Part shown: positions 44,798-62,790 of the stretch, one piece after another
How the letters are laid out: the number at the start of each line of letters is the position of its first letter
Position numbering within the stretch: the first letter of the stretch is position 1
Virus record (IMG/VR): IMGVR_UViG_3300008740_000003
Location: 25,497-89,496 of that record
Strand: one strand, 5' to 3'
DNA: 64,000 nucleotides
From: a virus
Program-made: the position numbers and the translations under genes
Notes under the pieces: generated by a model
The model's database searches: none
Told to the model about the DNA's origin: nothing
The model's input: only the letters and a program-made list of their open reading frames with translations

Positions 44798-45462
44798 AAG
44801 CATTTATAATAACAATTTTAGATAATGAAAGTAGTATTGCCTACAGCAATAATGTTATTAAATCAATAAAAGAAACAAATTCTGATTTAGAACCTATTGT
44901 TTATCCTGCTGTTACTCCTGCAACAATGTGGAAAATTGATTGGACATGGCCCTGGCACAAAAAGAAAATTTGTGAAAAAACAAAATTATTATTAAAGCCG
45001 TACAAAACATATGATATGAATAAAAGAATTGCCGCGGCAGGAAGTCATTATAACTTATGGAAAAAATGTGTTGAATTAAATGAACCAATAATAGTTTGTG
45101 AACACGATGCATACTTTACTAGAAAATTTACACCCTTTGATTTTGAAGGAGGTTGTTTAGGATTAAATGATCCTGCAAAAGCTACACCAAAAGCAGAACT
45201 TTTCCATGAGACATTAAAAAATTTAGGAGAAGGAGTACACGATGCACCTTGGGTAATGAAGAAAGAAATACCACAAGGAATGGCGGGCAATAGTACATTT
45301 ATTATAAAACCTTGGGCCGCAAAAGAAATAATTAAAGCACAAGATGAAATTGGTTGGTGGCCAAATGATGCCATAACTTGCAAACAACTTTTTCCATGGA
45401 TTAAAGTTGTATATCCATACTACACTAGAGTACAAAACATCAAATCAACTACATCATTATAA
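44794..45462 (+). CDS. GT25-like glycosyltransferase
   Basis: 222 residues. KAFIITILDNESSIAYSNNV at the start, AAAGSHYNLWKKCVELNEPIIVCEHDAYF in the middle (GSHYxLW and EHD motifs) mark a family 25-like enzyme related to the gene at 40355. Last gene of the first glycan run. Confidence 0.72.
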   Translation: MKAFIITILDNESSIAYSNNVIKSIKETNSDLEPIVYPAVTPATMWKIDWTWPWHKKKICEKTKLLLKPYKTYDMNKRIAAAGSHYNLWKKCVELNEPIIVCEHDAYFTRKFTPFDFEGGCLGLNDPAKATPKAELFHETLKNLGEGVHDAPWVMKKEIPQGMAGNSTFIIKPWAAKEIIKAQDEIGWWPNDAITCKQLFPWIKVVYPYYTRVQNIKSTTSL

Positions 45463-45470
45463 AATTGGTT

Positions 45471-45478
45471 AATAAATA
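45471..45478 (+). promoter_or_regulatory. Late promoter motif AATAAATA (second glycan run)
   Basis: Lies 11 nt before the ATG at 45490, in the only real gap (27 nt) within the glycan cassette. Confidence 0.5.
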
Positions 45479-45489
45479 TTGGTAGTCCA

Positions 45490-46206
45490 ATGAAAATATT
45501 AATAACAGGTAATAAAGGTTTTATAGGTTCAGAACTTTCTAAAAGATTGGAAGAAAAAAATCATAAAATTTTTGGTATAGACATTAAAGACGGAAAAAAT
45601 ATATTTACGGCAGAATTACCAGAAGTAGATTTAGTAATTCATTTAGCCGCTATAGGAGGAGTACGTGAATCAATGTCTGATCCTAAAAAATACTGGGATA
45701 TGAACGTAGAAGGAACTAGAAAAATTTTAGAACATTATCAAAAAACAAGAGTGTTATATGCAGGTTCAAGTTCACAATATGAACCACATTTAAATCCATA
45801 TGCCGCTACAAAAAATGTAATTGAATACATACCTCATCCTAATTCAGTATGTATGAGATTTCATACAGTTTATTCTAAAACACCTAGATTTAATATGTTC
45901 TTTGACAAATTATTAAATGGAAAATTAGAATATGTTACCAATCATAAAAGAGATTTTATTCATGTAGAAGATTTGTGTAGTGCAATATTATGTATTATAG
46001 ACAATCCATTTTTTAAAGGACCTCTTGATATAGGCACTGGACAAAATATTAGAATAAGAGATATAGCACCTAATTTACCTGTAAAAGAAATAACATTGGG
46101 AGAACGTGAAGAAACTTTAGCTGACCTTACTAAAATAAAATCTTTAGGATGGGAACCTAAATGGACAGTACAAAAATTTTTAAGCGAGGAGGGATTTGAT
46201 TTATGA
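45490..46206 (+). CDS. NAD-dependent sugar-nucleotide epimerase/dehydratase (SDR)
   Basis: 238 residues. ITGNKGFIGSEL is the Rossmann loop, VIHLAAIGGVRESM the strand-4 region, AGSSSQYEPHLNPYAATKNV contains the S and Y-x-x-x-K catalytic residues, RDFIHVEDLCSAI and LDIGTGQNIRIRDIA follow. Shorter than typical family members. Probably epimerises or dehydrates an NDP-sugar for the cassette. Distinct from the HldD-like gene at 17472. Confidence 0.82.
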   Translation: MKILITGNKGFIGSELSKRLEEKNHKIFGIDIKDGKNIFTAELPEVDLVIHLAAIGGVRESMSDPKKYWDMNVEGTRKILEHYQKTRVLYAGSSSQYEPHLNPYAATKNVIEYIPHPNSVCMRFHTVYSKTPRFNMFFDKLLNGKLEYVTNHKRDFIHVEDLCSAILCIIDNPFFKGPLDIGTGQNIRIRDIAPNLPVKEITLGEREETLADLTKIKSLGWEPKWTVQKFLSEEGFDL

Positions 46207-46574
46207 AGCAAGGAAAAATTTGGGGACAAACAGAATTAATACACGCAAATGGTGTATTAGAATTCCATAGAATAGATTTTAAGAAAAATGTACAATGCTC
46301 TAAACATAAACACAAATATAAATGGAATGGCTTCTATGTTGTTTCAGGTAAGTTAATGGTAAAAGTTTGGAAAACTGACCAAGGATTAATAGATGAAACA
46401 ATACTTAAAGCAGGAGATTGGACAAGAATTAAACCTGGAGAATATCATCAATTTATAGGATTACAAGATGGTGTTGCTTTTGAATTATATTGGGCACAAT
46501 TTGATCATGATGATATAGAAAGAGCAAACGCCGGTCAACGGGTTAATGAAGATATAGACAGAACAAATGATTAA
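46203..46574 (+). CDS. Cupin-fold protein
   Basis: 123 residues. HRIDFKKNVQCSKHKHKYKWNGFYVVSG contains the HxHx(n)E-like cupin motif (HKHKYKWNG) and GDWTRIKPGEYHQF motif 2, as in type II phosphomannose isomerase-like cupins. Overlaps the SDR gene by 4 nt. Likely sugar-nucleotide isomerase or binding protein. Confidence 0.72.
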   Translation: MKQGKIWGQTELIHANGVLEFHRIDFKKNVQCSKHKHKYKWNGFYVVSGKLMVKVWKTDQGLIDETILKAGDWTRIKPGEYHQFIGLQDGVAFELYWAQFDHDDIERANAGQRVNEDIDRTND

Positions 46575-47244
46575 CATTTTTATAGGATATGATAGCAAAG
46601 AAACAGTAGCGTTCAATATACTATCGTATAGTATATTAAAAAATAGTACTAGACCTGTTGCTATTACTCCAGTTAACTTACAAAATATAAAAGATAATTT
46701 TACTAGAGAACGAAGTAATATAGAATCTACAGAATTTAGTTTTAGTAGATTTATTGTTCCTCACTTAATGAATTATAAAGGGTGGGCTTTGTTTATGGAT
46801 TGTGATCAATTAATGTTAGCAGATGTGGCAGAGCTATGGAGATTAAGAGATGAAAGATATGCTGTACAAGTATGCAAACACGATTATATACCAAGAGCTG
46901 ATAAGAAATTTTTAGGACAAGTACAAACAAAATACGAAAAGAAAAATTGGTCAAGTTTTATGTTAATGAATTGTGATAAGTGTACAGCACTAACACCTGA
47001 CTATGTTAATACTGCTACAGGATTACAATTACACCAATTTAAATGGTTAGCAGATGAAAATCTAATAGGTGATTTGCCTTTAGAATGGAATTGGTTAGCT
47101 GGAGAATATCCACGAAAAGATAATGTTAAAAATGTACATTATACTGAAGGCGGACCTTGGTATGTAGATTATTTGCAATCTGATTATGCAAATGAATGGC
47201 AACAATATTTTGACGAAGCCACTAAAAGGAATATGAACAAATAA
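46567..47244 (+). CDS. Predicted glycosyltransferase (DCDQ motif)
   Basis: 225 residues. IFIGYDSKETVAFNILSYSI is the nucleotide-sugar binding start seen in GT8-like phage/bacterial proteins; GWALFMDCDQLMLAD is the D-x-D region; FKWLADENLIGDLPLEWNWL follows. Cytoplasmic. Overlaps the cupin by 8 nt. Confidence 0.75.
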   Translation: MINIFIGYDSKETVAFNILSYSILKNSTRPVAITPVNLQNIKDNFTRERSNIESTEFSFSRFIVPHLMNYKGWALFMDCDQLMLADVAELWRLRDERYAVQVCKHDYIPRADKKFLGQVQTKYEKKNWSSFMLMNCDKCTALTPDYVNTATGLQLHQFKWLADENLIGDLPLEWNWLAGEYPRKDNVKNVHYTEGGPWYVDYLQSDYANEWQQYFDEATKRNMNK

Positions 47245-47245
47245 T

Positions 47246-48070
47246 ATGAATAAATGGTATGCTGTAGATCATGATGATGCAATCCTAAAAAATTGGATGG
47301 CAGGAATCAAACAAGTGACAGGTCATCCAGATCCTAGTGAATATGACCATTGGGATAATATTAAATTAACACCTACGACTAATTCTATATCTGTTAGAGG
47401 AATGACAAATCATAAAATTATTCACGAGTGTTGGAGAACTAAAAGACCTTTTTATTATGTTGATACAGGATACATAGGTAATAATCAAAAAAGAAAAGAA
47501 TGGCATAGAGTAATTCGTAACAATGTACAACATCAAAAACTTGTAGATGTTCCTGCTAATAGGTTAGTATCACTACAACAATCTTTTCCAGAACTTAAAT
47601 GGAAAGGTTGGAGAAAAGATGGTGGAGCAATATTACTTGTAACACCTAGTCCTAAACCTTGTAGATTTTATAATGTAGATAGAGATACATGGGTAGAAGA
47701 CACTATTGCAACTTTAAAAAAATATACTGATAGAGAAATTATTGTTAGAGATAAAGTAGAAAGACGTAAAAGAGTTGGAGTAGGTCATATATTTTCTCAA
47801 ATAAAAAATGACAACATTTATGCTTTAGTAACATATCAATCTATAGGAGCAATAGAAGGAATAATTGCAGGAGTTCCAGCATTTACAGGAGCACCTACAG
47901 CCGCTGATCCAGTTAGCAATCATGACCTAGCAAATATTGAAAATCCAAAGTATTCAGATGAAGAAGAAATTTGGAAATGGCAAAAATGGTTAGCGTACTG
48001 TCAATATACTTCTGGAGAATTATCAAACGGCAATGCATTAAGAATTTTACAAGAAATGGAGTTAGAATAA
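47246..48070 (+). CDS. Predicted GT-B-like glycan protein, triplet member 1
   Basis: 274 residues. The C-terminal part IYALVTYQSIGAIEGIIAGVPAF ... NHDLANIENP matches the two other members at 48070 and 49853 (VxxxSxxxxxxxxxGxPxF, then a conserved IExP). This resembles the donor half of capsule-type glycosyltransferases (SSxxxExxxxGxP). The N-terminal half is diverged. Function inferred from context only. Confidence 0.6.
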   Translation: MNKWYAVDHDDAILKNWMAGIKQVTGHPDPSEYDHWDNIKLTPTTNSISVRGMTNHKIIHECWRTKRPFYYVDTGYIGNNQKRKEWHRVIRNNVQHQKLVDVPANRLVSLQQSFPELKWKGWRKDGGAILLVTPSPKPCRFYNVDRDTWVEDTIATLKKYTDREIIVRDKVERRKRVGVGHIFSQIKNDNIYALVTYQSIGAIEGIIAGVPAFTGAPTAADPVSNHDLANIENPKYSDEEEIWKWQKWLAYCQYTSGELSNGNALRILQEMELE

Positions 48071-49020
48071 TGAAAAGAGTAGTTGCATATATGAAAGTTA
48101 TTCCACCAGGAAACAAAAGTCCACAAAAGCCTTTAATTATAAAAAATTTTATAGAAGGTGTTAACGCAAGTGGAGATCAAGGATTAGTTTCTAATGGTTG
48201 GTCAATTATAGATGCAGATGTATCTGTTATTCAAGGCTATGTACATAAAAATTCAAAACAAACACGTCATTTACTTTTAAGAAAAAATGTTCATGAAAAT
48301 CAAATTAAAAAAGGAAAAAGATGTTTAATTGTTGACAGTAGTTTATTTTTATGGGCAGATCCTAAACAAGAAAAAACATATTTAAGATATGGCTTTGACG
48401 GAATATTTCCTAATACAGCAGAATATTGTAATAAAGAACCAGACCCTAATAGATGGGAAATAATTAAAAAGAATCTTAATGTAGACCTTAAACCTTGGAG
48501 AACTACAAGTAGAGATGGCTTTATATTAATTTGTTGTCAGAGAGATGGTGGATGGAGTATGGAAGGTATGCCTGTTATGAATTGGTTAAGAGACGTTATG
48601 ACTAAAATTAGAACGTATACTGATAGACGTGTTAAGATTAGATTCCACCCAGGTGATAAAAATACAGCAAAACACCAAGCAATGATTAGAGAATGGATAA
48701 AAGCACGAAACGTACAATTCCAAGGAGTAGAAGTTAGTTGGTCAAAAGATATTAGAGATGAGTATGCAGGAGCATATGCAGTTGTTGGACATAATTCAAG
48801 TCCTACTGTATCTAGTGTAATTGAAGGAATACCTACTTTTATAACTGATCCTGAACGAGCTCAATCGGCTCCAGTAACACATCATTCATTTGCAGAAATA
48901 GAAAAACCTAGAGATTTTGATAGAGAATTATGGGTTCGACAAATGGCGCAAGTACATTGGACGTTAGATGAATTAAAAGATGGTACTGCTTGGAAACATT
49001 TGAGAAAGTGGGTTAAATGA
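48070..49020 (+). CDS. Predicted GT-B-like glycan protein, triplet member 2
   Basis: 316 residues from the ATG that overlaps the previous stop as TAATG (an in-frame ATG lies 99 nt upstream but inside the previous gene). LKPWRTTSRDGFILICCQRDGGW, KIRFHPGD and YAVVGHNSSPTVSSVIEGIPTF ... HSFAEIEKP parallel member 3. Likely a cytoplasmic polysaccharide-type transferase. Confidence 0.62.
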   Translation: MKRVVAYMKVIPPGNKSPQKPLIIKNFIEGVNASGDQGLVSNGWSIIDADVSVIQGYVHKNSKQTRHLLLRKNVHENQIKKGKRCLIVDSSLFLWADPKQEKTYLRYGFDGIFPNTAEYCNKEPDPNRWEIIKKNLNVDLKPWRTTSRDGFILICCQRDGGWSMEGMPVMNWLRDVMTKIRTYTDRRVKIRFHPGDKNTAKHQAMIREWIKARNVQFQGVEVSWSKDIRDEYAGAYAVVGHNSSPTVSSVIEGIPTFITDPERAQSAPVTHHSFAEIEKPRDFDRELWVRQMAQVHWTLDELKDGTAWKHLRKWVK

Positions 49021-49856
49021 AAAACTACAAAGTAGTAACTACCTTTCATCAAAAAGGAATGGATTTGTATGGGCAAAGATTTATAGATTCTTTTAATAAA
49101 AATGTAGATAAAAGTATACGACTAGAAGTATTTGCAGAAAATTGTAATCCACAAGGAGATGAAAGAACTACAATTCATAATAGTAACGTTATTACTAAAC
49201 TAACAGCTTTTAAAAATAAATGGAAAGATGTTCCTAAAGCAAATGGTATATGTCCTTTTCCTGAAAAGCGTCCACGAGATCATCATAAAAAATTTAAATG
49301 GGACGCAATAAGATTTGCAAATAAAGTTTATTCTGTATTACATAGTGCAGAAGATGAAAACACAGATTGGTTAATATGGATGGACGCTGATGTTGTTGTA
49401 CATAGTCAATGGCCACTTCAAGACTTTACAAAATTATTTCCTGATACAAGATGGTTAACATTTGTTGGAAGAGGAAGAGGAGCTCAAACATGGCCCGAGT
49501 GTGGATTTTATGGAATGAATTTAAAACATCCTTCTTGTAAAAAGTTTTTAAAAGATTTTGAACGTGTATATGAAGATGCCGAAAAAGGTATATTTTTATT
49601 ATCTGAATGGCACGACTCATATGTGTTTGGACAGTTATTAAAAAGTGCAAGACTGCAAGATGCAGATGTACTAGATTATAGCGAAAACATATACAATAGG
49701 ACCGCAAAGACGGGCGGAGGCGGGCATCCTTTCATCAACTGCGTACTAGGTACCTGGCTAGATCATTTAAAAGGAGATTCTCGAAAACAAAAAGGAACTA
49801 GCCTAAAAACAGATTTAATGATAGGTCGTAATGAAGAATATTGGAAAAATATATGA
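49017..49856 (+). CDS. Predicted glycosyltransferase (DADV motif)
   Basis: 279 residues. DWLIWMDADVVVHSQW contains the D-x-D motif, PECGFYGMNLKHPSCKKFL is the mid-domain pattern of GT-A-like enzymes, and SEWHDSYVFGQLL gives an acceptor-side D. It lies between two members of the triplet family with 4-nt overlaps. Confidence 0.72.
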   Translation: MKNYKVVTTFHQKGMDLYGQRFIDSFNKNVDKSIRLEVFAENCNPQGDERTTIHNSNVITKLTAFKNKWKDVPKANGICPFPEKRPRDHHKKFKWDAIRFANKVYSVLHSAEDENTDWLIWMDADVVVHSQWPLQDFTKLFPDTRWLTFVGRGRGAQTWPECGFYGMNLKHPSCKKFLKDFERVYEDAEKGIFLLSEWHDSYVFGQLLKSARLQDADVLDYSENIYNRTAKTGGGGHPFINCVLGTWLDHLKGDSRKQKGTSLKTDLMIGRNEEYWKNI

Positions 49857-50692
49857 AATTTAGTGTGTTTACAGATTTTGGTTCTTTAAATAGTGTTCCA
49901 GTTTTTAATGCAGTAATAAAAGGTTTATTAAAATTAGAACATGAAGTAGTTGTAAACTCTTTAGATGCCGATGTGGCTGTTATATGGTCATTACTATGGC
50001 ACGGAAGAATGGAACCTAATAAAAGAATATGGCAAGAATTTCATCGACAAAATAAAAAAGTATTAGTAATAGAAGTAGGAAATATTAAAAGAAATATTAC
50101 TTGGAAAGTTGGCATTAATGGAATAAATCGAAAAGCCGACTTTGGTCAAATGGGTAATGGTCCTGACAGAGCAAATAAATTTAATTTAAAATATAGTCCC
50201 TGGAGGACTGCAGGTGATCATATATTAATATGTTCTCAACATGACAAAAGTGAACAATGGAAAGATATGCCACCATTAAATCAGTATTTGCATGAAACCA
50301 TTGATAAAATTAGAGAACATTCAAAAAGAAAAATAATAATAAGAACTCATCCTAGATGTCCTGTACAATTAAATTTAAAACACGAAAGTCAAGTAGGAAT
50401 GCAAGTACCTAAACAAATTAAAGACAGTTATGATGACTTCGACTTTGATCTAACAAATTGTTGGGCAGTAGTTAGTGAAAGTAGTAACCCAGGTATTACA
50501 GCAGTTCTTAATGGAATACCTGCATTTGTAGGTAAAGACAGTCTTGCATATGACGTAGGAAATACTGATTTCTCCCACATAGAAGACCCAAAAATGCCCG
50601 ACAGGCAACAATGGCTCCAAGATTATGCATATACAGAGTGGACTACAGAAGAAATAGCGGAAGGATTACCATTTTCTAGATTGACTTTTTGA
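49853..50692 (+). CDS. Predicted GT-B-like glycan protein, triplet member 3
   Basis: 279 residues from the ATG overlapping the previous stop (ATGA), in preference to an ATG 12 nt earlier. YSPWRTAGDHILICSQHDKSEQW, IIIRTHPRCP and WAVVSESSNPGITAVLNGIPAF ... DFSHIEDP match member 2. Last gene of the glycan cassette; an early promoter begins inside its 3' end. Confidence 0.62.
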   Translation: MKFSVFTDFGSLNSVPVFNAVIKGLLKLEHEVVVNSLDADVAVIWSLLWHGRMEPNKRIWQEFHRQNKKVLVIEVGNIKRNITWKVGINGINRKADFGQMGNGPDRANKFNLKYSPWRTAGDHILICSQHDKSEQWKDMPPLNQYLHETIDKIREHSKRKIIIRTHPRCPVQLNLKHESQVGMQVPKQIKDSYDDFDFDLTNCWAVVSESSNPGITAVLNGIPAFVGKDSLAYDVGNTDFSHIEDPKMPDRQQWLQDYAYTEWTTEEIAEGLPFSRLTF

Positions 50693-50716: not shown

Positions 50717-52000
50717 ATGCAAAAAATCTCAATAGAAGCTTGTTTGGAAATGATGGTAGGCTTGAGTGATAAGCCAGTTAATCCGCCATTTATTATACTA
50801 GATAAAGATAGAAAAATATTAACCGACATTGCCAAAAAAGTTTATAGAGGTACTGCTTTAACTGATAGACAGTACGCAACTGTAAAAAGAGTCCTTAGAA
50901 CTAACTACTCTACACAATTTAAAAATAGAGATATTGATATCCATGCATCATCAAATATATTACGTAAACCACTAAGACAAATAGATAGAAGTTCTTATAT
51001 TAAAATTGGAAATTATAAAGAATTTGTTTACGATCCTTTTAGTTATTATGCATATCAACCAAACCATAAAGTTCTTGTAATAAGATTTCCTTTTAATGTT
51101 ATGTATAGTAAACTTATGGGGGAAGTTAGAAAATGTTTTCCTTTTTATAGAACTCATAAACAAAAGGATAAAAACAAATATATTCTTCCTTATAATGAAC
51201 GTTTAGCTCATAAAGTAGTAGATAAGTTTAAAGGCAAAATAGCAGATATAGATCCAACATTATTAGAGATTCATGAAAAGTGTGAATACTTTTATAATAA
51301 TAAACAAGAATTTCTACCAGGAATTTATGATTTCAAAATTAAAAATTGTTTACCAAAAACGTCTGAACACTATGTAAATAAGTTTGGGCAACCAAGTCCT
51401 AGTAACTTATTTTTATTTAAAGATAGAAGTGAATATTTGGGATTAAAATATTTTAGTGGACTACATTTAGAACACTCATTAGCCGATCAAGATGAGTTTA
51501 CTAAAAGGCTTGTTAAACGTAAAGCATCTGTAGTTGTTGTTGAAAAGAAAAAATGGGAATTAAAACAAGTAATAAAAACAATGTTTGATTTAAAAAGAAT
51601 TCCTTTATTGGTAGTATTACCAGTATTTCCAAAAAAAGATCCTGCTGAATCTTTGGAAGCATCACATAAAATTTTTAAAAACTATGTAGACAATAAAGAC
51701 ATTTCGGTATTGTTTAGATTAGAAAACATGGAATCTGGCATCAAGTTTAACGAATATGTTCGTGAAAATGGACTTAATAATAAACTTGCAAATAATACAA
51801 AAATAGTGTACATTAATAATAAGAAGATTCCAAAACCTTTATTAAGATTTAATTGGGAACCGGAAGGCGTATTATGTCTTGATACTACAAGGAATTACAG
51901 CAAAGTAAATTCTTTTGAAGAAGAATTTGATTTAGTTGTTCAATATGCTACTGAAGAACATAGCCCTTGGAATCCATATTTTGTTATGGAAAATATATGA
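50717..52000 (+). CDS. Early protein upstream of UvsW, unknown function
   Basis: 427 residues. It includes the segment VLVIRFPFNVMYSKLMGEVRK and KYILPYNERLAHKVVDKFKGK, a pattern that reminds me of N-terminal domains on some helicase-like proteins, but no ATPase motif is present. It overlaps UvsW by 4 nt and has a strong early promoter, so it may be a UvsW partner. I do not recognise the family with any confidence. Confidence 0.7.
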   Translation: MQKISIEACLEMMVGLSDKPVNPPFIILDKDRKILTDIAKKVYRGTALTDRQYATVKRVLRTNYSTQFKNRDIDIHASSNILRKPLRQIDRSSYIKIGNYKEFVYDPFSYYAYQPNHKVLVIRFPFNVMYSKLMGEVRKCFPFYRTHKQKDKNKYILPYNERLAHKVVDKFKGKIADIDPTLLEIHEKCEYFYNNKQEFLPGIYDFKIKNCLPKTSEHYVNKFGQPSPSNLFLFKDRSEYLGLKYFSGLHLEHSLADQDEFTKRLVKRKASVVVVEKKKWELKQVIKTMFDLKRIPLLVVLPVFPKKDPAESLEASHKIFKNYVDNKDISVLFRLENMESGIKFNEYVRENGLNNKLANNTKIVYINNKKIPKPLLRFNWEPEGVLCLDTTRNYSKVNSFEEEFDLVVQYATEEHSPWNPYFVMENI

Positions 52001-53451
52001 GTTGTAAAATAGTAATCAACGACGAAGTCAATATAAAAATTGAAGGGCTACCTGTCGATGTACGAAGAAAAATAGCAAATAATTTAAAATGGGAAGTCCC
52101 TTATGCAAGATACTTGCCTCAATATAAATTAGGAAGATGGGATGGTAAGATAGGTTTCTTTGGTTTAGGTGGTAGCGGTTTTGTTAATCATTTAGATAAA
52201 ATTTTAGAATTACTTAATAAGCAAGGCGTTGAAGTAGGTTCTATAGAAGATAACAGAAAGAAATATGATTTAAAATTCCTACCTATAGATAAAAATTATT
52301 TTGGAAATAAAACGTGGCCCAAAGGTCATATTTGTGAAGGACAAAAAATTGTACTTCGTGATTATCAAGTAGATGTTGTTAATAATTTTATAAAACAACC
52401 TCAATCATTACAAGAAGTTGCCACAGGTGCAGGTAAAACAATTGTTACTGCTTGTTTATCTAGCTTATGTGAAAGACTTGGAAGAACTGTTGTAATAGTA
52501 CCTAATAAAAGTTTAGTTACACAAACAGAAGAAGATTATGTTAATGTAGGTCTTGATGTTGGTGTGTACTTTGGTGACCGTAAAGAATTAAACAAAACTC
52601 ATACTATTTGTACTTGGCAATCTTTAAATGTTTTAGATAAAAAAGCAAAAGCTGGACAATCTACATTATCCTTAACTGAATTTTTAAGTGGTGTACAAAC
52701 ATTAATAATAGATGAAGTACACCAAGCAAAAGCAGATGTTTTAAAAAAATTACTAACACATCATTTAAAAAATTCTCCAGTAAGATGGGGATTAACAGGA
52801 ACAATACCAAAAGAACAATTTGAATTTCAAAGTTTATTAGTTGCTATAGGTCCTGTTATTAATCAAATATCTGCAAAAGAATTACAAGATAAAGGTATCT
52901 TATCTAAGTGTCACGTTAATATAGTACAACTAGTAGACACTTTAGTACATAGAACATATCAAGAAGAATTAAGTTATTTGGTTACAACAAAAGATAGATT
53001 AACATACATAGCAAAATTAATAGGCAAAATAAAAGATACAGGCAATACACTAATATTAGTAGACAGATTAAAGGCAGGAGAGAAATTAAAAGAATTAATT
53101 CCTAATAGTGTTTTTATTAAAGGCGAAACAAAATTACAAGAAAGAAAAGAACAATACGATGAAATTTCTAGTTCAGATAATAAAATAATAATTGCAACAT
53201 ATGGCGTTGCATCTATTGGAATTAATATTCCTAGAATATTTAATTTAGTATTAATAGAGGCAGGTAAATCATTTATAAGGGTAATACAGTCAATAGGTCG
53301 TGGCATAAGAAAGGCAAAAGATAAAGACTTTGTTCAAATATGGGACATAACATCTACTTGTAAGTTTGCTAAAAGGCATCTTACACGAAGAAAGAAATTT
53401 TATAAAGAAGCTAACTATCCATTTACTGTAGAAAAAGTACAATGGAATTAG
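51997..53451 (+). CDS. uvsW: UvsW DNA/RNA helicase
   Basis: 484 residues from the ATG overlapping the upstream stop (T4: 587). N-terminal substrate domain (YARYLPQYKLGRWDGKIGFF), Walker A ATGAGKT at 142-148, DEVH at 239-242, LTGTIPKE (motif III), and GRGIRKAKD (motif VI). UvsW unwinds R-loops and branched DNA and moves replication from origin-dependent to recombination-dependent initiation. Motifs intact; the C-terminal accessory part is shorter than in T4. Confidence 0.93.
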   Translation: MSCKIVINDEVNIKIEGLPVDVRRKIANNLKWEVPYARYLPQYKLGRWDGKIGFFGLGGSGFVNHLDKILELLNKQGVEVGSIEDNRKKYDLKFLPIDKNYFGNKTWPKGHICEGQKIVLRDYQVDVVNNFIKQPQSLQEVATGAGKTIVTACLSSLCERLGRTVVIVPNKSLVTQTEEDYVNVGLDVGVYFGDRKELNKTHTICTWQSLNVLDKKAKAGQSTLSLTEFLSGVQTLIIDEVHQAKADVLKKLLTHHLKNSPVRWGLTGTIPKEQFEFQSLLVAIGPVINQISAKELQDKGILSKCHVNIVQLVDTLVHRTYQEELSYLVTTKDRLTYIAKLIGKIKDTGNTLILVDRLKAGEKLKELIPNSVFIKGETKLQERKEQYDEISSSDNKIIIATYGVASIGINIPRIFNLVLIEAGKSFIRVIQSIGRGIRKAKDKDFVQIWDITSTCKFAKRHLTRRKKFYKEANYPFTVEKVQWN

Positions 53452-54688: not shown

Positions 54689-55148
54689 ATTGCCGTTGAA
54701 GGATATCCTTGCGGCTATAGATATGAATGCCAAAAACATTTGGAATGAATTTTCTGATGATGAACAAAAGCAAGTAGGCTTTTATATATTGAATAGATAT
54801 GCAAGTTCAGTAGTAGGTAAGAAAGAAGATAAAGAATTAACTATTCTAAAAACAAATGAATATTATAATAAAAACTTTTTTACTTTATCTAGACATAAAA
54901 AATTATTATGGTATTTGTTATGTATGACTGCAAGTGAAAAGAAAAAAATAACATTTCATCCATGGATAGGATATAAACATAAAGAATATGGTAGTAAATC
55001 AAAGGCAGTTAAGTTTTTAAAAAATTTATATCCTACTAAAAAAGAAGATGAAATAACATTATTGGCAACAATAAATTCTGCTAGTGAATTAAAAACATTA
55101 GCACAAGACTTTGGTATGTCAAAAGAAGAGGTTAAAAAAGTACTATGA
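54669..55148 (+). CDS. Possible clamp-loader small subunit (gp62-like)
   Basis: 159 residues, helical. LPLKDILAAIDMNAKNIWNEF, VGFYILNRYASSV, FFTLSRHKKLLWYLLC, KITFHPWIGYK and LKTLAQDFGMSKEEVKKVL follow the order of the short clamp-loader subunit of marine T4-like phages as I recall it (IN..K, F.INR, N, K..FPW, YG.S...A). T4 gp62 binds gp44 to load the sliding clamp. gp44 and gp45 are not in this window. Moderate confidence, from pattern only. Confidence 0.5.
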   Translation: MATVKNKLPLKDILAAIDMNAKNIWNEFSDDEQKQVGFYILNRYASSVVGKKEDKELTILKTNEYYNKNFFTLSRHKKLLWYLLCMTASEKKKITFHPWIGYKHKEYGSKSKAVKFLKNLYPTKKEDEITLLATINSASELKTLAQDFGMSKEEVKKVL

Positions 55149-55828
55149 TAGAAAAGTTGCATTCTTGTAAACATTGTAACGCAAAGTTTACTAGAGAAAA
55201 AACTTTAGCTGTCCATATGTGCGAACAAAAAAGAAGATTTTTACAAAAGGATGAAAGGAGAGTTCAATTAGGATATCAAACTTTTATTAGATTTTATCAA
55301 TTGTGTCAAAAAATGGAAAAAGAAAAAACATACGAAGAATTTTGTAAGAGTCCATACTATACAGCATTTGTTAAGTTTGGAAGTTTTTTGAGTAATGTTA
55401 AACCTTTATATCCACACAAATATATTGATTATGTTGTTACTAGTGGAGTAAAATTAGATCATTGGTGTAGAGAAGAATTATATGAAAAGTATTCTATAAA
55501 TTTAATTTTAAAAGAAACAATGGAAACAGCAGTAGAACGTTCTATTAAATCTATGATGGATTGGGCAGAAGAAAAAGAAGCACCATGGCACGATTACTTT
55601 AAGTATGCAAGTTTGAATAGAGCTACACAAGATATTAGAGATGGAAAAATTTCACCATGGCTAGTATTAAATTGTAAAACAGGTAAAGAAATGTTGAGTA
55701 AATTTAATGATGAACAATTGCAAATTATAAGTCGTATAATGGATCCTAGACATTGGGCAGTAAGATTTCAAAGAGTGCCAGCAGATGTAGAAATAGTAAA
55801 AAATATTACCAAGGAGGCAAATTTATAA
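55145..55828 (+). CDS. Zinc-finger phage protein of unknown function
   Basis: 227 residues. The N-terminus has C8-x2-C11-x12-H24-x-C26, a C2HC-type finger. The rest is helical (FIRFYQLCQKM, YTAFVKFGSFLSNVKP, RSIKSMMDWAEEKEAPWHDYF, PRHWAVRFQRVPAD). Overlaps the previous gene by 4 nt. A DNA- or RNA-binding role in replication or late transcription is possible from context. Confidence 0.7.
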   Translation: MIEKLHSCKHCNAKFTREKTLAVHMCEQKRRFLQKDERRVQLGYQTFIRFYQLCQKMEKEKTYEEFCKSPYYTAFVKFGSFLSNVKPLYPHKYIDYVVTSGVKLDHWCREELYEKYSINLILKETMETAVERSIKSMMDWAEEKEAPWHDYFKYASLNRATQDIRDGKISPWLVLNCKTGKEMLSKFNDEQLQIISRIMDPRHWAVRFQRVPADVEIVKNITKEANL

Positions 55829-56019
55829 TGACAACACATACTACTAAAACATATATTAAAGGAAAATATCGTATAAAAGAATATTATACTGATCAAAATT
55901 TATGGAAAGAAACAAAGACACTTATTAAAAAGAAAAAACAAAAACCTAAAAAAGAAAAACCTAATCCTTTTAAAGGACTAGGTAGAGGTAGCAGTAGCAG
56001 AGGACCTTGGAAAATATGA
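55828..56019 (+). CDS. Small basic protein with GS-rich tail
   Basis: 63 residues from the ATG overlapping the preceding stop (TAATG), with AAGGAGG at 55811-55817 as a strong ribosome-binding site. TYIKGKYRIKEYYTD start, KKKKQKPKKEKPNPF, then GLGRGSSSRGPWKI. Probably nucleic-acid binding; not recognised. Confidence 0.6.
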   Translation: MTTHTTKTYIKGKYRIKEYYTDQNLWKETKTLIKKKKQKPKKEKPNPFKGLGRGSSSRGPWKI

Positions 56020-56312
56020 AAGATATAGAAATAAAAATAGAAACGTTTAAAAATAAAGATGTGGATTTTCTTGAAGTACAAAAATACGTTATTAATTTAT
56101 TTGAGTCAGGACAAATAACTGTAGAAGGAAAAACTTGCGAAGACATTTCAGATTTATTGTATATGAACATTGCAAGAAGATGGCAAAGTAGAGATATTGC
56201 TATTGAAATAACTGATGAAAGTAAATGTGGTTGTTCAATGTTGTATCCAAAGGATCCTAAAATTGTATTAAATCCAAATCAAAGGAATATTATTGTTAGA
56301 TGCCAGATATAG
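56016..56312 (+). CDS. Small protein of unknown function (98 aa)
   Basis: 98 residues from MKDIEIKIETFKNKDVDF. DISDLLYMNIARRWQSRDIAIEITDESKCGCSM is weakly reminiscent of tetrahydropterin-synthase-like folds but lacks the zinc histidines. Overlaps neighbours by 4 and 13 nt, coupling it to the DnaE-like gene. Not recognised. Confidence 0.6.
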   Translation: MKDIEIKIETFKNKDVDFLEVQKYVINLFESGQITVEGKTCEDISDLLYMNIARRWQSRDIAIEITDESKCGCSMLYPKDPKIVLNPNQRNIIVRCQI

Positions 56313-56878
56313 ATATAGACTTTGCAGATAGATCAATTTTACTAGATAAAATTAAACACAGAATTGCTAAATTAGATTCTGGGAAGAAACATAATACTGG
56401 AGTTTACTTTACAGAAGTACCTCACGATCCAGTAAACAATCTTTGTACACTTGATTATGAAAACGCAGAACAAAGAGGATATTTTAAAATAGATTGTTTG
56501 AACGTTAGCATTTATAAAGATATTAAAGATGAAAAACATCTTAATAAATTAATAAACACTGAACCATTATGGGAATTATTAGAAGCAAAAGAATTTGTAG
56601 ATCAAATTTTTCATATTAATGGACACGTAGAAATATTAAAAAAACTTAAACCAGTAAACATAGAACAATTAGCGGCTGTATTGGCAATAATTAGACCAGC
56701 TAAAAGATATTTACTTAAAAAAACTTGGGATGAAATATTAAAAAATGTTTGGATTAAACCAACTGATGGAAGTTACTTTTTTAAAAAATCCCACGCAACT
56801 TCATATGCAATGGCAGTAATTGTACATATGAATCTTTTATGCGAACAATTAAAAGGAAATAATGTCAAAAAGTCATAA
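56300..56878 (+). CDS. Miniature DnaE-like (DNA polymerase III alpha) protein
   Basis: 192 residues. It starts MPDIDIDFADRS, the bacterial DnaE catalytic motif PDxDxDF with two metal aspartates (here D3 and D5). It continues with GYFKIDCLNVS at 60-70, aligned to the DnaE G-x-x-K-x-D-F-L-G-L motif and the third Asp (D65). Then come KPVNIEQLAAVLAIIRPAKR (DnaE KPxxxEDLIALxALxRPG) and FFKKSHATSYAMAV (DnaE NKSHAxxYA). The PHP, fingers, beta-binding and OB regions are absent; full DnaE is about six times longer. I recall similar short proteins in cyanophages. Function unknown: a minimal nucleotidyl transferase, a replisome inhibitor or a decoy. Confidence 0.8.
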   Translation: MPDIDIDFADRSILLDKIKHRIAKLDSGKKHNTGVYFTEVPHDPVNNLCTLDYENAEQRGYFKIDCLNVSIYKDIKDEKHLNKLINTEPLWELLEAKEFVDQIFHINGHVEILKKLKPVNIEQLAAVLAIIRPAKRYLLKKTWDEILKNVWIKPTDGSYFFKKSHATSYAMAVIVHMNLLCEQLKGNNVKKS

Positions 56879-57251: not shown

Positions 57252-57513
57252 AGTAACGTGGCCCATTTAAAATATTATTAAATCTAAATAAATGAGATTG
57301 CCAGTCTTTTATTGCTTTTCCAGAAAACAAATCCTCATCTTCTAGTCTTAAATCGCAATTAGGACAACCTTTATTTTCCATTGTTTCTACCCAATAGGGT
57401 TCACGATATATTGGAAGATTTGCACCTGTATCTGTGCATCGTTCATGCCACCAGACAGTTCTACCACTTATAGCATACCACACCTTTCTTGTCTCCTCGG
57501 TCCAGTTATACAT
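57223..57513 (-). CDS. Small protein with CxxC motif, unknown function
   Basis: 96 residues starting at the ATG that overlaps the upstream stop (TGATG); a GTG one codon earlier is the alternative. WWHERCTDTGANLPIYREPYW and KGCPNCDLRLE give a CPNC metal or redox pair. FNNILNGPRYSKEQ near the end. Second gene of a two-gene minus-strand unit. Confidence 0.6.
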   Translation of the reverse strand: MYNWTEETRKVWYAISGRTVWWHERCTDTGANLPIYREPYWVETMENKGCPNCDLRLEDEDLFSGKAIKDWQSHLFRFNNILNGPRYSKEQKLKLK

Positions 57514-57905
57514 CACTGATTGATTTTTTTGATTACTTCTTTAGGTTTTCTAACTAGTTGAACTGATCTTCTTTTTGTTCTTTTTACAGCAAGATTGTTT
57601 AAATTTGTGACGTGACCCATTTTTACTGTAACATCTTTAGTATTCATTATCATTAAAATTTCCCTATAATTTTGCATTTCTTTTCTTAAAAATATTCCAA
57701 TAGGGATCATTCTATTAGACTCCCACCACCAGGTTTTACACAAGGCTACAAAATCAGCTTTCTGACTATCGCCCTTTAAGTCCTGATAGATGTACATACT
57801 AGTGATTGCGTGGTCTTGATTGTTGATTACACCCACATATTCCTTACCTCCATACTCTACTACACTTATGAAGGGAAAATCTTTCTCTATGTCTTCTTTT
57901 AGCAT
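57513..57905 (-). CDS. Small protein of unknown function (130 aa)
   Basis: 130 residues if started at MLKEDIEKDFPF; an upstream in-frame ATG at 57959 would overlap the divergent gene and its late motif, so I prefer the inner start. FISVVEYGGKEYVGVINNQD, LCKTWWWESNRMIPIGIFLRKEM, VTVKMGHVTNLNNLAVKRTKRR. I recall similar proteins in marine T4-like phages. No catalytic motif. Confidence 0.6.
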   Translation of the reverse strand: MLKEDIEKDFPFISVVEYGGKEYVGVINNQDHAITSMYIYQDLKGDSQKADFVALCKTWWWESNRMIPIGIFLRKEMQNYREILMIMNTKDVTVKMGHVTNLNNLAVKRTKRRSVQLVRKPKEVIKKINQ

Positions 57906-57915
57906 TCTTTTTTCT

Positions 57916-57923
57916 AATAAATA
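57916..57923 (+). promoter_or_regulatory. Late promoter motif AATAAATA
   Basis: 30 nt upstream of the virion gene at 57954, in the divergent gap with the minus-strand pair. Spacing suits a late promoter. Confidence 0.55.
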
Positions 57924-57953
57924 CGTTATATTGTTACTAATTGATGGTGTATT

Positions 57954-58739
57954 ATGCAACTTATACGAAGATATTTATTAAATAATAGAATAGTGCTTAC
58001 TGCGAATTTGGCAGGGCAAGTTACGAGGTATAGATCCGTGTATCAAAGAAATATAAATGTTTACAGAAATATAGACAATGTTCTTCAGTTTGAAGTTAAA
58101 AATGCTGACGAAAAAGCTGTGAGTATCCTTAATACATACACACCTAAGTTTAAAATGTGGGATGAAAACAATACATTAGTTGCTGAAAAAGATGGAACTA
58201 TTATAGAAACATCTACTCCAAGCAAAGTAGGACAATTTACTATAACATTAACTGAAAACGATTTACTAAATCTTAAACAACAATATATGAGTTATAGTGT
58301 TTATTTGTATCATACAAATGATGCTAAGAACGTTTTAACTTATCCTAATTCACACTTCGGAAGTCAAGGAACAATATATCTTAATACTAGCAACTTTCCT
58401 GGACCTAAAGTATCGCATGAAGTTAAAACATTTATTCAAGATACAGCAGACAATACAATATATAATTCAGAAACAATTACAGCCGATCCGGCATTAAACG
58501 GAAATATAGCTTTACATACTGCGGCATATTATACTACAGATGCAGTTGGTACATTAACAGTACAAGGTACTTTAGATGCTCAGATAGGTGCAGGTACAAA
58601 TTGGGCAGATATAAGCACAACCAATTTAACTTCTGGTGACACACTTCAATATGTTAATTTCAATGGCGTATATCAACACTTAAGATTCAGACACCAAATA
58701 ACTGCTGGTACTATAGACAAAATATTAGTTCGAAACTAA
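57954..58739 (+). CDS. Virion structural protein
   Basis: 261 residues. The start LIRRYLLNNRIVLTANLAGQ and VYQRNINVYRNIDNVLQFEVKN is a pattern I know from marine T4-like virion proteins. Mostly beta-rich, no enzymatic motif. Lies alone among early genes with its own late motif. Confidence 0.75.
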   Translation: MQLIRRYLLNNRIVLTANLAGQVTRYRSVYQRNINVYRNIDNVLQFEVKNADEKAVSILNTYTPKFKMWDENNTLVAEKDGTIIETSTPSKVGQFTITLTENDLLNLKQQYMSYSVYLYHTNDAKNVLTYPNSHFGSQGTIYLNTSNFPGPKVSHEVKTFIQDTADNTIYNSETITADPALNGNIALHTAAYYTTDAVGTLTVQGTLDAQIGAGTNWADISTTNLTSGDTLQYVNFNGVYQHLRFRHQITAGTIDKILVRN

Positions 58740-58774: not shown

Positions 58775-59758
58775 ATGAATATCGTATATGACGCATTATT
58801 AATTCACTTACCCCAAAAAAGAAAACAAACACCTAGCGGTTGGCTATCTTTTAACGCACCTTGTTGTCAACATATGGGCACAACTGCGGATACTAGACAA
58901 CGAGGAGGTCTAATTGGTACCGTTGATGAAGGTGTAAGTTTCCATTGTTTTAACTGTGGTTTTACAGCAAGTTGGAGAATTGGTAGAAACTTATCATATA
59001 AAATGAAAAGGTTCATGAGATGGCTTAATATGCCAGATGAACAAATTACTAAATTAGCATTAGCAGTTCTACAAATCAAAACAGATACAGTAGGATATCA
59101 AGCAATAACACAATTACCAAAATTTAAAAATAAAGAGCTTCCGGAAGGAGCAAAACCATTACACGAATGGACAGAACAGGACAAATATTTTTATAAAGTT
59201 TTAGAATATGTAGACAAAAGAAGTTTAAAGTTAGATGATTATGAATTTTATTGGTCTAATAATAGTGGCTACAGAGATAGGTTAATTATTCCTTTTTATT
59301 ATCAATCACGTATAGTAGGGTATACTGCTAGAAGAGTTACTCACTCAGATAAAGTAAAATACCTATCTGAACAACAACCAGGCTACGTTTTTAACATAGA
59401 TGGACAAGATGATGATAGAAAATATGTAATTGCAGTAGAAGGACCTATAGATGCAATTACTATAGATAGTGTAGCACTATTAGGAAGTGAAATTAAAGAC
59501 CAACAAGGAGTTTTATTAAACAGTTTAGGTAAGCACGTGATAGTGGTACCTGACAGAGATGAAGCTGGAGAAAAGTTAGTTCATGATGCTCTGAACTTGG
59601 GATGGAGCGTGAGTATGCCTGATTGGGATCATGATATTAAAGATATTTCTGACGCCGTTGGTAAATACGGACGACTACATACTTTGTATGCAATCATAAA
59701 AAACGCACAGGAATCACAATTGAAGATAAAGTTAAGGATGAAAAAATGGTTTATATAA
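58775..59758 (+). CDS. gp61: DNA primase gp61
   Basis: 327 residues (T4: 342). Zinc site: C30, H33, C58, C61. TOPRIM: VEGPIDAIT and VVPDRDEAG. RDRLIIPFYYQSRIVGYTARR is the RNA-polymerase-domain core. Makes RNA primers with the gp41 helicase. Overlaps the next small gene by 13 nt. Confidence 0.92.
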   Translation: MNIVYDALLIHLPQKRKQTPSGWLSFNAPCCQHMGTTADTRQRGGLIGTVDEGVSFHCFNCGFTASWRIGRNLSYKMKRFMRWLNMPDEQITKLALAVLQIKTDTVGYQAITQLPKFKNKELPEGAKPLHEWTEQDKYFYKVLEYVDKRSLKLDDYEFYWSNNSGYRDRLIIPFYYQSRIVGYTARRVTHSDKVKYLSEQQPGYVFNIDGQDDDRKYVIAVEGPIDAITIDSVALLGSEIKDQQGVLLNSLGKHVIVVPDRDEAGEKLVHDALNLGWSVSMPDWDHDIKDISDAVGKYGRLHTLYAIIKNAQESQLKIKLRMKKWFI

Positions 59759-59871: not shown

Positions 59872-60894
59872 ATGATAATATGGGGAATAACAGGTAATAG
59901 TCACGATGCAAGTTTATCCGTGATGAAGTGGAGTCCGAATGGTTTAACGGATCATTATAAACTTAAACTGCTTTGGGCAGGACTGTCTAGAGACTTTAGT
60001 GGTAAACCAGGTGATCCAAGTTTAAGTGGCAAGATGTTAGCTTATGTTAGATCAAATCCTAGATGGGCTTTCCCGGCAAAAATTATTTGGTATGAAAAAC
60101 CTTTTTTAAAAAGTTTACGACAGTTATGGGCAGGTCAAGGATTATTATTTCAAGAAAATAATATTAAGAAATATCTAGCTAAAGCAGGTATTCATAAAGT
60201 TCCAATCGAATATGCAAAACATCATCACAGTCATGCGGCTTACGGATATTTTACAGCACCTTTTATTGAAAGAAATGCCGCAATAGTTGTACTAGATAGT
60301 ATAGGAGAATTTCAAACATTTACTATATGGCATGGTAAAAGACATCATTTAAAACAAGTATACTCACAAAGATATCCTCATAGTGTTGGATTATTTTATA
60401 GTGCAATGACTCAACGAGTAGGATTTAAACCAAACGCAGAAGAATATAAAACAGAACAACTTGCTAAAAAAGGTAACTGGAGAGTTCACTATAGAAAATT
60501 TATGGAAGAATTAGTTGATACTAGAATGCCTTTTAGATTAAGAGAAAATTTACATCGGGGAGCTAATTGGTGGAGACCTGAACTAACGTCAGAAGAAGAT
60601 TTAGCCAATATAGCCGCAACTACTCAACATATTTTTGAATTGACTTTAGTTAGTATTAGTGGATGGTGCCAAACAAATATTAAAGCTGATAATGTAGTTT
60701 TTGTAGGTGGTTGTGCATTAAACAAAACTGCTATTAGTAAATTACAACATATATGGGATGACATTTGGATTCCACCAAATCCGGGTGATCCAGGCTCTTG
60801 TATTGGTTCTGTTCTAACAAGGTATCCAAAACACCTTGACTTTGATCCCGATGTATGGTACAATAAGGATAATGGAAAAATCAAGACAAAATAA
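59872..60894 (+). CDS. Carbamoyltransferase-like protein, N-terminal domain only
   Basis: 340 residues. IWGITGNSHDASLSVMKW, AKHHHSHAAYGYF (the metal-binding histidine cluster), VVLDSIGEFQTF and FVGGCALN match Carbam_trans_N. The C-terminal domain that forms carbamoyl-adenylate, present in the 603-residue gene at 4137, is absent. It may be a different transferase, a subunit working with another protein, or a remnant. Such short forms occur in cyanophages as I recall. Overlaps the helicase gene by 23 nt. Confidence 0.82.
   Translation: MIIWGITGNSHDASLSVMKWSPNGLTDHYKLKLLWAGLSRDFSGKPGDPSLSGKMLAYVRSNPRWAFPAKIIWYEKPFLKSLRQLWAGQGLLFQENNIKKYLAKAGIHKVPIEYAKHHHSHAAYGYFTAPFIERNAAIVVLDSIGEFQTFTIWHGKRHHLKQVYSQRYPHSVGLFYSAMTQRVGFKPNAEEYKTEQLAKKGNWRVHYRKFMEELVDTRMPFRLRENLHRGANWWRPELTSEEDLANIAATTQHIFELTLVSISGWCQTNIKADNVVFVGGCALNKTAISKLQHIWDDIWIPPNPGDPGSCIGSVLTRYPKHLDFDPDVWYNKDNGKIKTK
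60836..60864 (+). promoter_or_regulatory. Sigma70-type early promoter for gp41
   Basis: TTGACT (60836-60841), 17-nt spacer, TACAAT (60859-60864), ATG 7 nt later at 60872. Located inside the 3' end of the upstream gene. The AAGGA next to the -10 is probably too close to transcription start to act as ribosome-binding site. Confidence 0.75.
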
Positions 60895-62299
60895 AGAATA
60901 CGGATACGATATTCAAAAAGTTTATCTAGAAATGATGCTAGGAAATGCAGAAGCATTTGTTAGATGTCAATCTATATTTGATCAGTCTTTATTTGATAGA
61001 AAATTACAAAGTGCGGCAGATTATCTTAACAAATATGTTGCTGAACATAATGCATTACCAACACCAGATATGATTAATGCAAATTGTAAAACAGATTTAA
61101 AAGTACCTGAAGGACTTCATGAATCTCATTATGATTGGTTACTAGGAGACTTTGAAACATTTGTTAGACATAAAAGTCTTGAAAGAGCTATATTAAAATC
61201 TGCAGATATGTTAGAAAAAGGTGACTATGGTCCAGTTGAAGACTTGGTTAAAAAGGCAGTCCAAATAGGACTACACAAAGATTTAGGTACAGATTATTTT
61301 AAAGATCCAAAAGAAAGATTAATGAAATTAAAAAATCAGGCTGGTCAAGTTAGTACAGGCTGGTCAACATTAGATAGAAAACTATTTGGCGGATTTAATA
61401 AAGGAGAACTTAATATATTTGCAGGAGGATCAGGTGCAGGTAAATCTTTATTTCTTACAAATTTAGGTTGTAACTGGACATTAGCAGGATTGAATATTTT
61501 ATATATTAGCTTTGAATTAAGTGAAGAATTAATATCAATGAGAATAGATAGTATGCTTACTGACATTCCAACAAAGAAAATTTTTAAAGAATTAGAAGGT
61601 GTTGAAATGAAAGTAAAAATACTTGGCAAGAAAGCTGGTAAATTCCAAATTAAATATTTGCCAAGTGGTAAAAATGCAAACGATATTAGATCATTTATTA
61701 AGGAATATGAAATTAAAACACAAAGCAAAGTAGATGTATTGCTAGTTGATTATTTAGATTTAATGATGCCTATATCTAAAAAAGTATCTCCAAGTGATTT
61801 ATTTGTTAAAGATAAGTTTGTATCAGAAGAATTAAGAAATTTATCAATGGAATTAGGAATTATATTTGTAACTGCATCACAATTGAACAGAGGTTCGGTT
61901 GAAGAAATAGAATTTGATCACTCACATATAGCAGGCGGTATTAGTAAAATACAAACTGCTGATAATGTATTTGGTATATTCACTAGTAGAGCAATGAGAG
62001 AACGTGGAAGATATCAAATACAATTAATGAAAACTAGATCATCTAGTGGTATTGGTAGTAAAATAGATTTAGAATTTGATATAGATTCATTAAGAATTAG
62101 AGATTTAATTGAAGATGAAGACGCTCAAAAATATGATAAACGAGTAGGTCAAGTATATAATACATTAAAGAAAACATCACCAGACCAACCAGAAACAACA
62201 GCCGTTGATCCTAGTAAAGGTACTAGAATACCTCAAGCTAAAACAGAAGGCGATTCTACTAAATTGCGAGAGTTTTTATCTAATCTAGACAAAGAGTAA
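60872..62299 (+). CDS. gp41: Replicative helicase gp41 (DnaB family)
   Basis: 475 residues from the ATG just after the promoter (T4: 475). N-terminal helical domain; RecA core with GWSTLDRKLFGGFNKGEL, Walker A GGSGAGKS at 185-192, the Walker B strand VDVLLVDYLDLM, and FVTASQLNRG. Unwinds DNA at the fork with gp61. The alternative ATG 36 nt upstream lies within the promoter and is unlikely. Confidence 0.94.
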   Translation: MEKSRQNKEYGYDIQKVYLEMMLGNAEAFVRCQSIFDQSLFDRKLQSAADYLNKYVAEHNALPTPDMINANCKTDLKVPEGLHESHYDWLLGDFETFVRHKSLERAILKSADMLEKGDYGPVEDLVKKAVQIGLHKDLGTDYFKDPKERLMKLKNQAGQVSTGWSTLDRKLFGGFNKGELNIFAGGSGAGKSLFLTNLGCNWTLAGLNILYISFELSEELISMRIDSMLTDIPTKKIFKELEGVEMKVKILGKKAGKFQIKYLPSGKNANDIRSFIKEYEIKTQSKVDVLLVDYLDLMMPISKKVSPSDLFVKDKFVSEELRNLSMELGIIFVTASQLNRGSVEEIEFDHSHIAGGISKIQTADNVFGIFTSRAMRERGRYQIQLMKTRSSSGIGSKIDLEFDIDSLRIRDLIEDEDAQKYDKRVGQVYNTLKKTSPDQPETTAVDPSKGTRIPQAKTEGDSTKLREFLSNLDKE

Positions 62300-62301
62300 T
62301 A

Positions 62302-62790
62302 ATGAGATTATATAAAAACAAAAGATCCAATATACATAGGAATGGCTTGTCTGCCTCTACTAATATTAAAAAAGGTCAAAGAATTATCCAGTATAAAGGA
62401 AAGAAAATTAGTCACGATAAAGCAGAAACAGATCCAAAGTATGATAACGATAAAGAGATTTACTTGTTTAATTTAAACAAACAGTACGATCTTGATGGTG
62501 ATTTTAAATTTAATACTGCTCGATTAATAAATCATTCCTGTAATCCTAACTGTGAAGTTTTTGATTATAACAGACAATTATGGATTTTTGCTATAAAGAA
62601 TATTAAAAAAGACGAAGAGTTAACTTATGATTATGGGTTTAGTTTTGATAAAACAGACTACAAACAATACCCTTGTAAGTGTGGATCATCTAATTGCGTA
62701 GGTTATATTGTTCGAGAGGGATCAAGATGGCGAATAAGCCGCGAAGCGGTCGTCCGCCAGAAAGTAAGCAGTCGCGAAGCGACGCGGTAG
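62302..62790 (+). CDS. SET-domain lysine methyltransferase-like protein
   Basis: 162 residues. GLSASTNIKKGQRIIQYKG (start of SET), RLINHSCNPNCEV (the NHSCxPN motif at 77-83), DEELTYDYGF at 105-113 (catalytic Tyr region) and a post-SET C-x-C-x4-C (125, 127, 132) with GYI. SET proteins methylate lysines; some bacteria and viruses carry them. All core motifs are present, so activity is plausible. The last 22 residues come from a GC-rich hairpin island unlike the rest of the gene. Target unknown. Confidence 0.88.
   Translation: MRLYKNKRSNIHRNGLSASTNIKKGQRIIQYKGKKISHDKAETDPKYDNDKEIYLFNLNKQYDLDGDFKFNTARLINHSCNPNCEVFDYNRQLWIFAIKNIKKDEELTYDYGFSFDKTDYKQYPCKCGSSNCVGYIVREGSRWRISREAVVRQKVSSREATR
62739..62783 (+). 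promoter_or_regulatory. Two GCGAAGC mini-hairpins in a GC-rich island
   Basis: CCGC-GAA-GCGG (62739-62749) and GTCGC-GAA-GCGAC (62771-62783) are perfect short stems with the same GAA loop, both containing GCGAAGC, a 7-mer known to form an exceptionally stable DNA mini-hairpin. They lie at the convergent junction of the SET and amidinotransferase genes. Could act as bidirectional terminators or DNA structure signals; no T-run directly follows. Confidence 0.65.

Follow-up and report, generated by a model that had tools for sequence, protein, structure and literature searches.

How does a viral protein of only 192 residues come to carry, in order, the active-site residues of DNA polymerase III alpha (DnaE) when most of that enzyme is missing from it? 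This question is raised by the open reading frame at positions 56300-56878 (+) of the window, by which we mean the whole 64,000-nucleotide stretch analyzed here. We consider it probable that this protein is one half of a PHP-less family C polymerase that is split into two proteins, reassembled, and active, and we call it the C-terminal unit (CTU), and its partner the N-terminal unit (NTU), of a split, minimal Pol III alpha.

The open reading frame encodes 192 amino acids plus a stop from an ATG start, and the codon directly 5' of this ATG is an in-frame TAG, so the protein, whose first residues are MPDIDIDF, truly starts at the DxD motif. The active-site residues of DnaE follow in the order DxDxD (D3/D5/D7), HxxG (H31, G34), KxD (K63, D65), RP (R132-P133), and KxHA (H165); the initial annotation had reported a reading frame of this length with motifs in Pol III alpha order, and all of them are present. 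The catalytic aspartates of E. coli DnaE are D401, D403, and D555, and its steric gate is H760 (PMC8485763). The metal-binding DxDxD lies in PDIDIDF (56303..56323, +, residues 2-8), which holds the equivalents of D401/D403 and corresponds to positions 414-420 of the Mtb DnaE chain. KID (56486..56494, +, residues 63-65) contains the third catalytic aspartate, D65, equivalent to D555, whereas KPVNIEQLAAVLAIIRP spans residues 117-133, and KKSHATSYA (56783..56809, +, residues 162-170) belongs to a fingers helix in which H165 is the equivalent of H760.

Homology, conservation, and selection

The relation to DnaE, first proposed from these motifs, is not due to chance. The CTU matches phrog_11778, 'DNA polymerase', in PHROGs (E=2.8e-60), and a family profile built from 11 diverse members has Pol III alpha chains as its sole PDB matches, with modest E values of 0.01-0.03; the fold matches described below also point to Pol III alpha. 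Pol III was found by the alignment profile only, and the elongation factor 2 match obtained in the PDB from the single sequence was discarded as chance. Pfam DNA_pol3_finger gave a weak, sub-threshold match on residues 91-134 (E=0.006). Against Mtb DnaE, the motifs of the CTU profile are ordered, with DxDxD at 415-419, the KxD aspartate at about 581, RP at about 661, and the KSHA histidine at about 781, as taken from the printed profile alignment.

Conservation was analyzed in 169 CTUs, comprising the window, 160 environmental loci, and 8 isolates, with 36-100% identity to the window protein. In the alignment of these sequences, D3, D5, D7, H31, G34, P41, A56, K63, and D65 show no variation, and L67, L84, W91, L124, R132, P133, K135, and H165 are fixed as well. 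The retention of D3, D5, and D65 had been interpreted as the result of selection, and this claim stands, since all three are invariant and none of the 169 members has lost one of them. This invariance, together with a dN/dS of 0.05-0.19 among close relatives (dS being near saturation in more distant pairs), shows that the CTU is under purifying selection, which is strong on the catalytic residues.

The losses relative to bacterial DnaE are large, as would be expected of a decaying DnaE gene, and an assembly artefact was also considered. We give practically no credit to either, as they are refuted by the more than 500 related loci, the annotated isolates from many hosts, the dN/dS values, the invariant catalytic residues, and the conserved gene order.

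In several isolates, the CTU is called 'putative membrane protein', e.g., GAP32_282 of GAP32 and relatives (L180:2447-3097). This label results from a predicted transmembrane helix, which, given the homology, is probably the C-terminal fingers helix. CTU homologues are also found in eleven contigs (L444-L454) from uncultured or metagenome-assembled bacterial and archaeal bins. A cellular origin of a stand-alone CTU was rejected, because these eleven matches probably represent viral contamination, i.e., mis-binned phage contigs.

The missing half of the palm

Missing from the CTU are the PHP domain, the GS-bearing first palm half, the larger part of the thumb, and all C-terminal domains of DnaE. 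D3 and D65 are 62 residues apart, compared to 154 for D401 and D555 of E. coli, which indicates that most of the thumb was lost, and the spacing from the RP arginine to the histidine is about 34 residues, compared to 120 in Mtb DnaE, corresponding to a loss of about 86 fingers residues. The end of the palm, a thumb stump, and two fingers pieces (the RP block and KKSHA) with the steric-gate histidine are kept. The initial annotation was correct in listing the PHP domain and the beta-binding region as missing, but not the fingers, since the RP block and KKSHA are present. Loss of most of the thumb and of about 86 fingers residues could have abolished polymerization.

The first NTU, a 185-aa protein encoded in the 236,751-bp record G002, was found by a PF07733 search of the relatives; its C-terminus reads ...GVGRGSSVASYVLYLIGVHKINSIQYGLDWREFLR*, and it matches phrog_11127 (E=6.1e-37). 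The members of this family, of about 180 aa, correspond to the first palm half with the GxGRGS motif. In this superfamily, the GxGRGS half contacts the phosphates of the incoming nucleotide. In G002, PF07733 is covered from 20 to 95 by the NTU and from 96 to 196 by the CTU, the two genes being 122 kb apart. The NTU profile aligns to residues 218-393 of E. coli DnaE and 335-407 of Mtb DnaE (5lew), and the first residue of the CTU falls at position 413 of the latter, with 5 residues between the NTU end and the CTU start. GRGS is present in all of the 158 genuine NTUs, and in 146 of these the terminus lies exactly 35 residues past the first G of the GS motif. The position of the split is thus precisely fixed, after the GS motif and before DxD. 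No intein sequence is present at the break, which discards a split intein. The long NTU frame of G029 (310 aa), considered as a fused NTU-CTU 'Rosetta stone', is merely an upstream open frame.

With three metal ligands and a steric-gate histidine in one chain that is predicted to fold confidently by itself, the CTU alone might act as a minimal nucleotidyl transferase, as had been suggested, or as a template-independent polymerase. Nevertheless, it represents half of a nucleotidyltransferase fold, and the GxGRGS half is supplied by a separate conserved gene, which makes a stand-alone nucleotidyl transferase unlikely. The GS motif sits on an NTU that is equally conserved and ends exactly where the CTU starts, and the CTU and NTU genes co-occur in nearly all large genomes, so that we regard any activity of the CTU alone as very improbable. 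Instead of a deleted DnaE working alone, the CTU would be the C-terminal unit of a two-protein polymerase whose partner is phrog_11127.

Predicted structures

The AlphaFold2 model of the window CTU (112 sequences) has a pLDDT of 92.5 and a pTM of 0.81, and that of an NTU (95 sequences) a pLDDT of 90.0 and a pTM of 0.70. Structure prediction, proposed earlier as a check on the DnaE relation, bears it out, as the best 11 PDB fold matches of the CTU model are all Pol III alpha; the best 15 of the NTU model are all Pol III alpha or PolC. The overlay is loose, with query TM-scores up to 0.45 and an rmsd of about 6-13 Å for the CTU, and query TM-scores of at most 0.47 with large rmsd over the fold matches of both units. 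The models thus point to a specific relation of both units to the Pol III fold, and the looseness of the matches suggests that the domain arrangement may differ from that of Pol III alpha.

Co-occurrence of the two units with a family B polymerase

Exactly one CTU gene and one NTU gene, together with a match to PolB, were found in each of eight isolates, PA5oct, Phosso, Atu_ph07, 121Q, XacN1, GAP32, SCTP-2, and Vibrio 2.275, whose genome is labelled partial. RAS14 and Slickus01 also have the CTU, the NTU, and PolB, which extends the observation to all ten isolate genomes examined. Of 10 IMG/VR records with a length of 250 kb or more, all of which were chosen for having one of the two units, 9 have both, and 26 of 28 large relatives have PolB. 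G023 (L352), an IMG/VR record of 359 kb, contains the NTU and PolB, and no CTU was found in it by profile or PF17657. The phage collection holds 90 CTU records, at least two of them short (86 and 110 kb), and 87 NTU records, with near-identical genus tallies. In the relatives, the two genes are separated by 11-280 kb, and they lie on the same strand in all of the 22 genomes compared. We thus observe two conserved half-proteins that complement each other in active-site residues, are divided at a fixed point, and occur together.

The Alishewanella phage Slickus01, whose circular, complete genome is 141,644 bp long, has the two halves 11 kb apart (L437:3884-4495 and L440:1486-1998). The presence of the pair in this 141-kb non-jumbo phage shows that its distribution extends beyond jumbo phages. 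The PolB match of Slickus01 is also split, over two frames of 578 and 322 aa.

The NTU was not found in the window or the rest of its 89-kb record by motif, profile, or protein searches (PF07733), and PolB was not found in this record, which is a fragment. Since the fragment is without the NTU, pairing in the window virus is inferred from its relatives. The small ORF at 55753-56019 has a GRGSSSRG tail, which was considered as an NTU motif and rejected as a low-complexity coincidence; of the loci scanned, only the near-identical one keeps it. With a marine NTU as the query, no contig was returned from the samples holding the closest CTUs of the window.

The homology to host DnaE, the small size, and the presence of PolB in these phages might also be explained if the CTU and NTU were non-catalytic decoys or inhibitors occupying the replisome of the host (or of PolB). 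DnaE contacts its replisome partners via its C-terminal regions, and these are among the missing parts. Moreover, a pure binder leaves the invariant metal ligands, the KxD lysine, the GS motif, and the steric-gate histidine unexplained. An inhibitor of the host replisome, as put forward in the initial annotation, would need neither an intact steric gate nor a constant partner bearing the rest of the active site, and we find this explanation unsupported and unlikely.

Gene context

Upstream of the CTU, the window encodes a UvsW-like DNA helicase (51967..53451, +, phrog_16, E=7.5e-76), a phrog_11058 neighbor (55145..55828, +) conserved in 79 of 80 related loci, and a small ORF with a weak phrog_17812 match (56007..56312, +), whose last 13 bases are shared with the start of the CTU. 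Downstream are a convergent phrog_11637 gene (57513..57959, -), conserved in 77 of the 80 loci, a virion structural protein-like gene (57954..58739, +), a DNA primase (58775..59758, +, phrog_47, E=3.1e-38), a carbamoyltransferase-type gene with Carbam_trans_N (59872-60894, +), found between primase and helicase in 55 of the 80 loci, and a DnaB-like replicative helicase of the T4 gp41 type (60836..62299, +, phrog_19, E=7.7e-69). The order phrog_11058, CTU, phrog_11637 (convergent), structural protein, primase, (carbamoyltransferase), DnaB-type helicase is shared by the window and the 80 related loci, read only as far as each contig extends. The surroundings of the CTU are similar in PA5oct, 121Q, GAP32, Atu_ph07, and SCTP-2, and differ downstream in XacN1. 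The NTU adjoins a GroES-like gene, near the gp44 clamp loader, in most isolates. The suggested coupling to replication genes is therefore confirmed for the CTU, with the primase and the DnaB-type helicase downstream, the UvsW-like helicase upstream, and a conserved order.

Directly 3' of the helicase, where some relatives have a mini-DnaE, the window encodes a SET-domain protein (62302-62790, +, E=1.8e-23), of which the 80 related loci, within the reach of their contigs, show no homologue; it is possibly a protein methyltransferase acquired by the window phage. A second carbamoyltransferase-type gene occurs at 4137-5948 (+), and the region 39504-50692 (+) appears, by eye, dense in glycosyltransferase-, methyltransferase-, and sugar-epimerase-like genes. 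The Xanthomonas phage XacN1 has, about 2.3 kb 3' of its CTU, a gene with the annotation DNA polymerase III epsilon (L179:5365-5546), whose product is a possible proofreading partner.

Proposed activity

We propose that the NTU and CTU chains would join after translation and with no intein involved, that a single active site would be restored in this way, and that the complex would catalyze template-directed dNTP addition. Given that most of the thumb, much of the fingers, and the C-terminal regions are absent, synthesis would presumably be limited to short stretches. With less certainty, the complex would most plausibly extend primase-made primers before PolB takes over, or alternatively fill gaps in repair. 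Primer extension with hand-over to PolB is favored by the fixed place of the CTU before the primase and helicase, and such a role is speculative. In its complete form, which we offer tentatively, an obligate heterodimeric minimal Pol III-type enzyme would extend primase-made primers and hand over to the family B replicase in a two-polymerase replisome, as a phage analog of the way in which Pol alpha shares the work with Pol delta/epsilon, or B. subtilis DnaE with PolC.

It is also possible, if somewhat doubtful, that the assembled NTU:CTU, while catalytic, acts in DNA repair or lesion bypass and not in primer extension. The truncated thumb and fingers recall distributive polymerases, and repair is among the possible roles counted by Iyer et al. 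where they discuss the split pair (PMC7824862). The position of the CTU upstream of the primase and helicase, in the window and most isolates, and that of the NTU gene near the gp44 clamp loader argue weakly against this role.

If active, the NTU/CTU pair would rank with the smallest known polymerases of the Pol III type, with an active site complete only once two proteins meet, and would offer a simple system for studying the minimal needs of a family C polymerase. It would also raise the question of why a second polymerase is retained by phages that already have a good family B replicase.

Comparison with known systems

According to Iyer et al. (Viruses 2021, PMC7824862), group 2.2 jumbo phages, with Atu_ph07 named among them, encode a phage-specific minimal Pol III alpha composed of an N-terminal NTP-binding and a C-terminal Mg-/template-binding protein from distant genes, accompanied by a family B polymerase. 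This description and the phage list (Atu_ph07) fit the CTU and NTU families analyzed here; the window CTU is a member of that split family, and nothing sets it apart. The split pair was already known in silico from this source, and the idea of a polymerase core in the CTU is accordingly not new (PMC7824862). Iyer et al. view the pair as a model of an ancestral polymerase (PMC7824862), a claim that becomes testable once activity is measured. Among the papers searched, we found no experimental follow-up of the pair, biochemical or proteomic. New here are the exact junction, the invariance over 169 CTUs and 158 NTUs, the same-strand pattern, the gene context, the pair in a 141-kb non-jumbo circular genome, and the abundance of the CTU in environmental viral contigs, largely aquatic judging by related records.

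Like bacterial Pol III alpha (DnaE, family C), the CTU has the equivalents of D401/D403/D555, HxxG, KxD, RP, and the H760 helix, and a matching fold. Unlike it, the predicted phage enzyme is without PHP, OB, and tail domains, and its palm is distributed over two genes; PHP, GS motif, and DxD in one chain, as in a complete family C enzyme, are absent, the CTU starting at DxD. In cyanobacteria, DnaE is also split, and DnaE-n and DnaE-c are joined by a split intein. The putative phage polymerase likewise comes from two distant genes, but its halves are without an intein and are separated within the palm, after GS and before DxD, such that they would need to associate non-covalently.

Unsplit, PHP-less mini-DnaE proteins (about 550 aa, P0003; phrog_405 relatives) are another case of a family C palm and fingers in phages. 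Unlike the CTU, P0003 is one chain with both GS and DxD, longer fingers, and a C-terminal extension. A mini-DnaE, with the GS motif and PDVDIDF, occurs next to dnaB in four relatives that themselves encode a CTU (L085:541-2187, -; L086:1474-3129, +; G007; G010), and the two complete cases are just downstream of dnaB. Two Pol III-type enzymes, the CTU pair and the mini-DnaE, may therefore coexist in one virus. Neither the window record nor any of the isolate genomes examined contains the mini-DnaE, whose nearest match in the phage collection is from an uncultured 484-kb phage (37% identity). Aligned by hhalign to P0003 alone, the CTU gives a weak match (probability 8%), in which the HxxG, KxD, and RP motifs are still correctly aligned.
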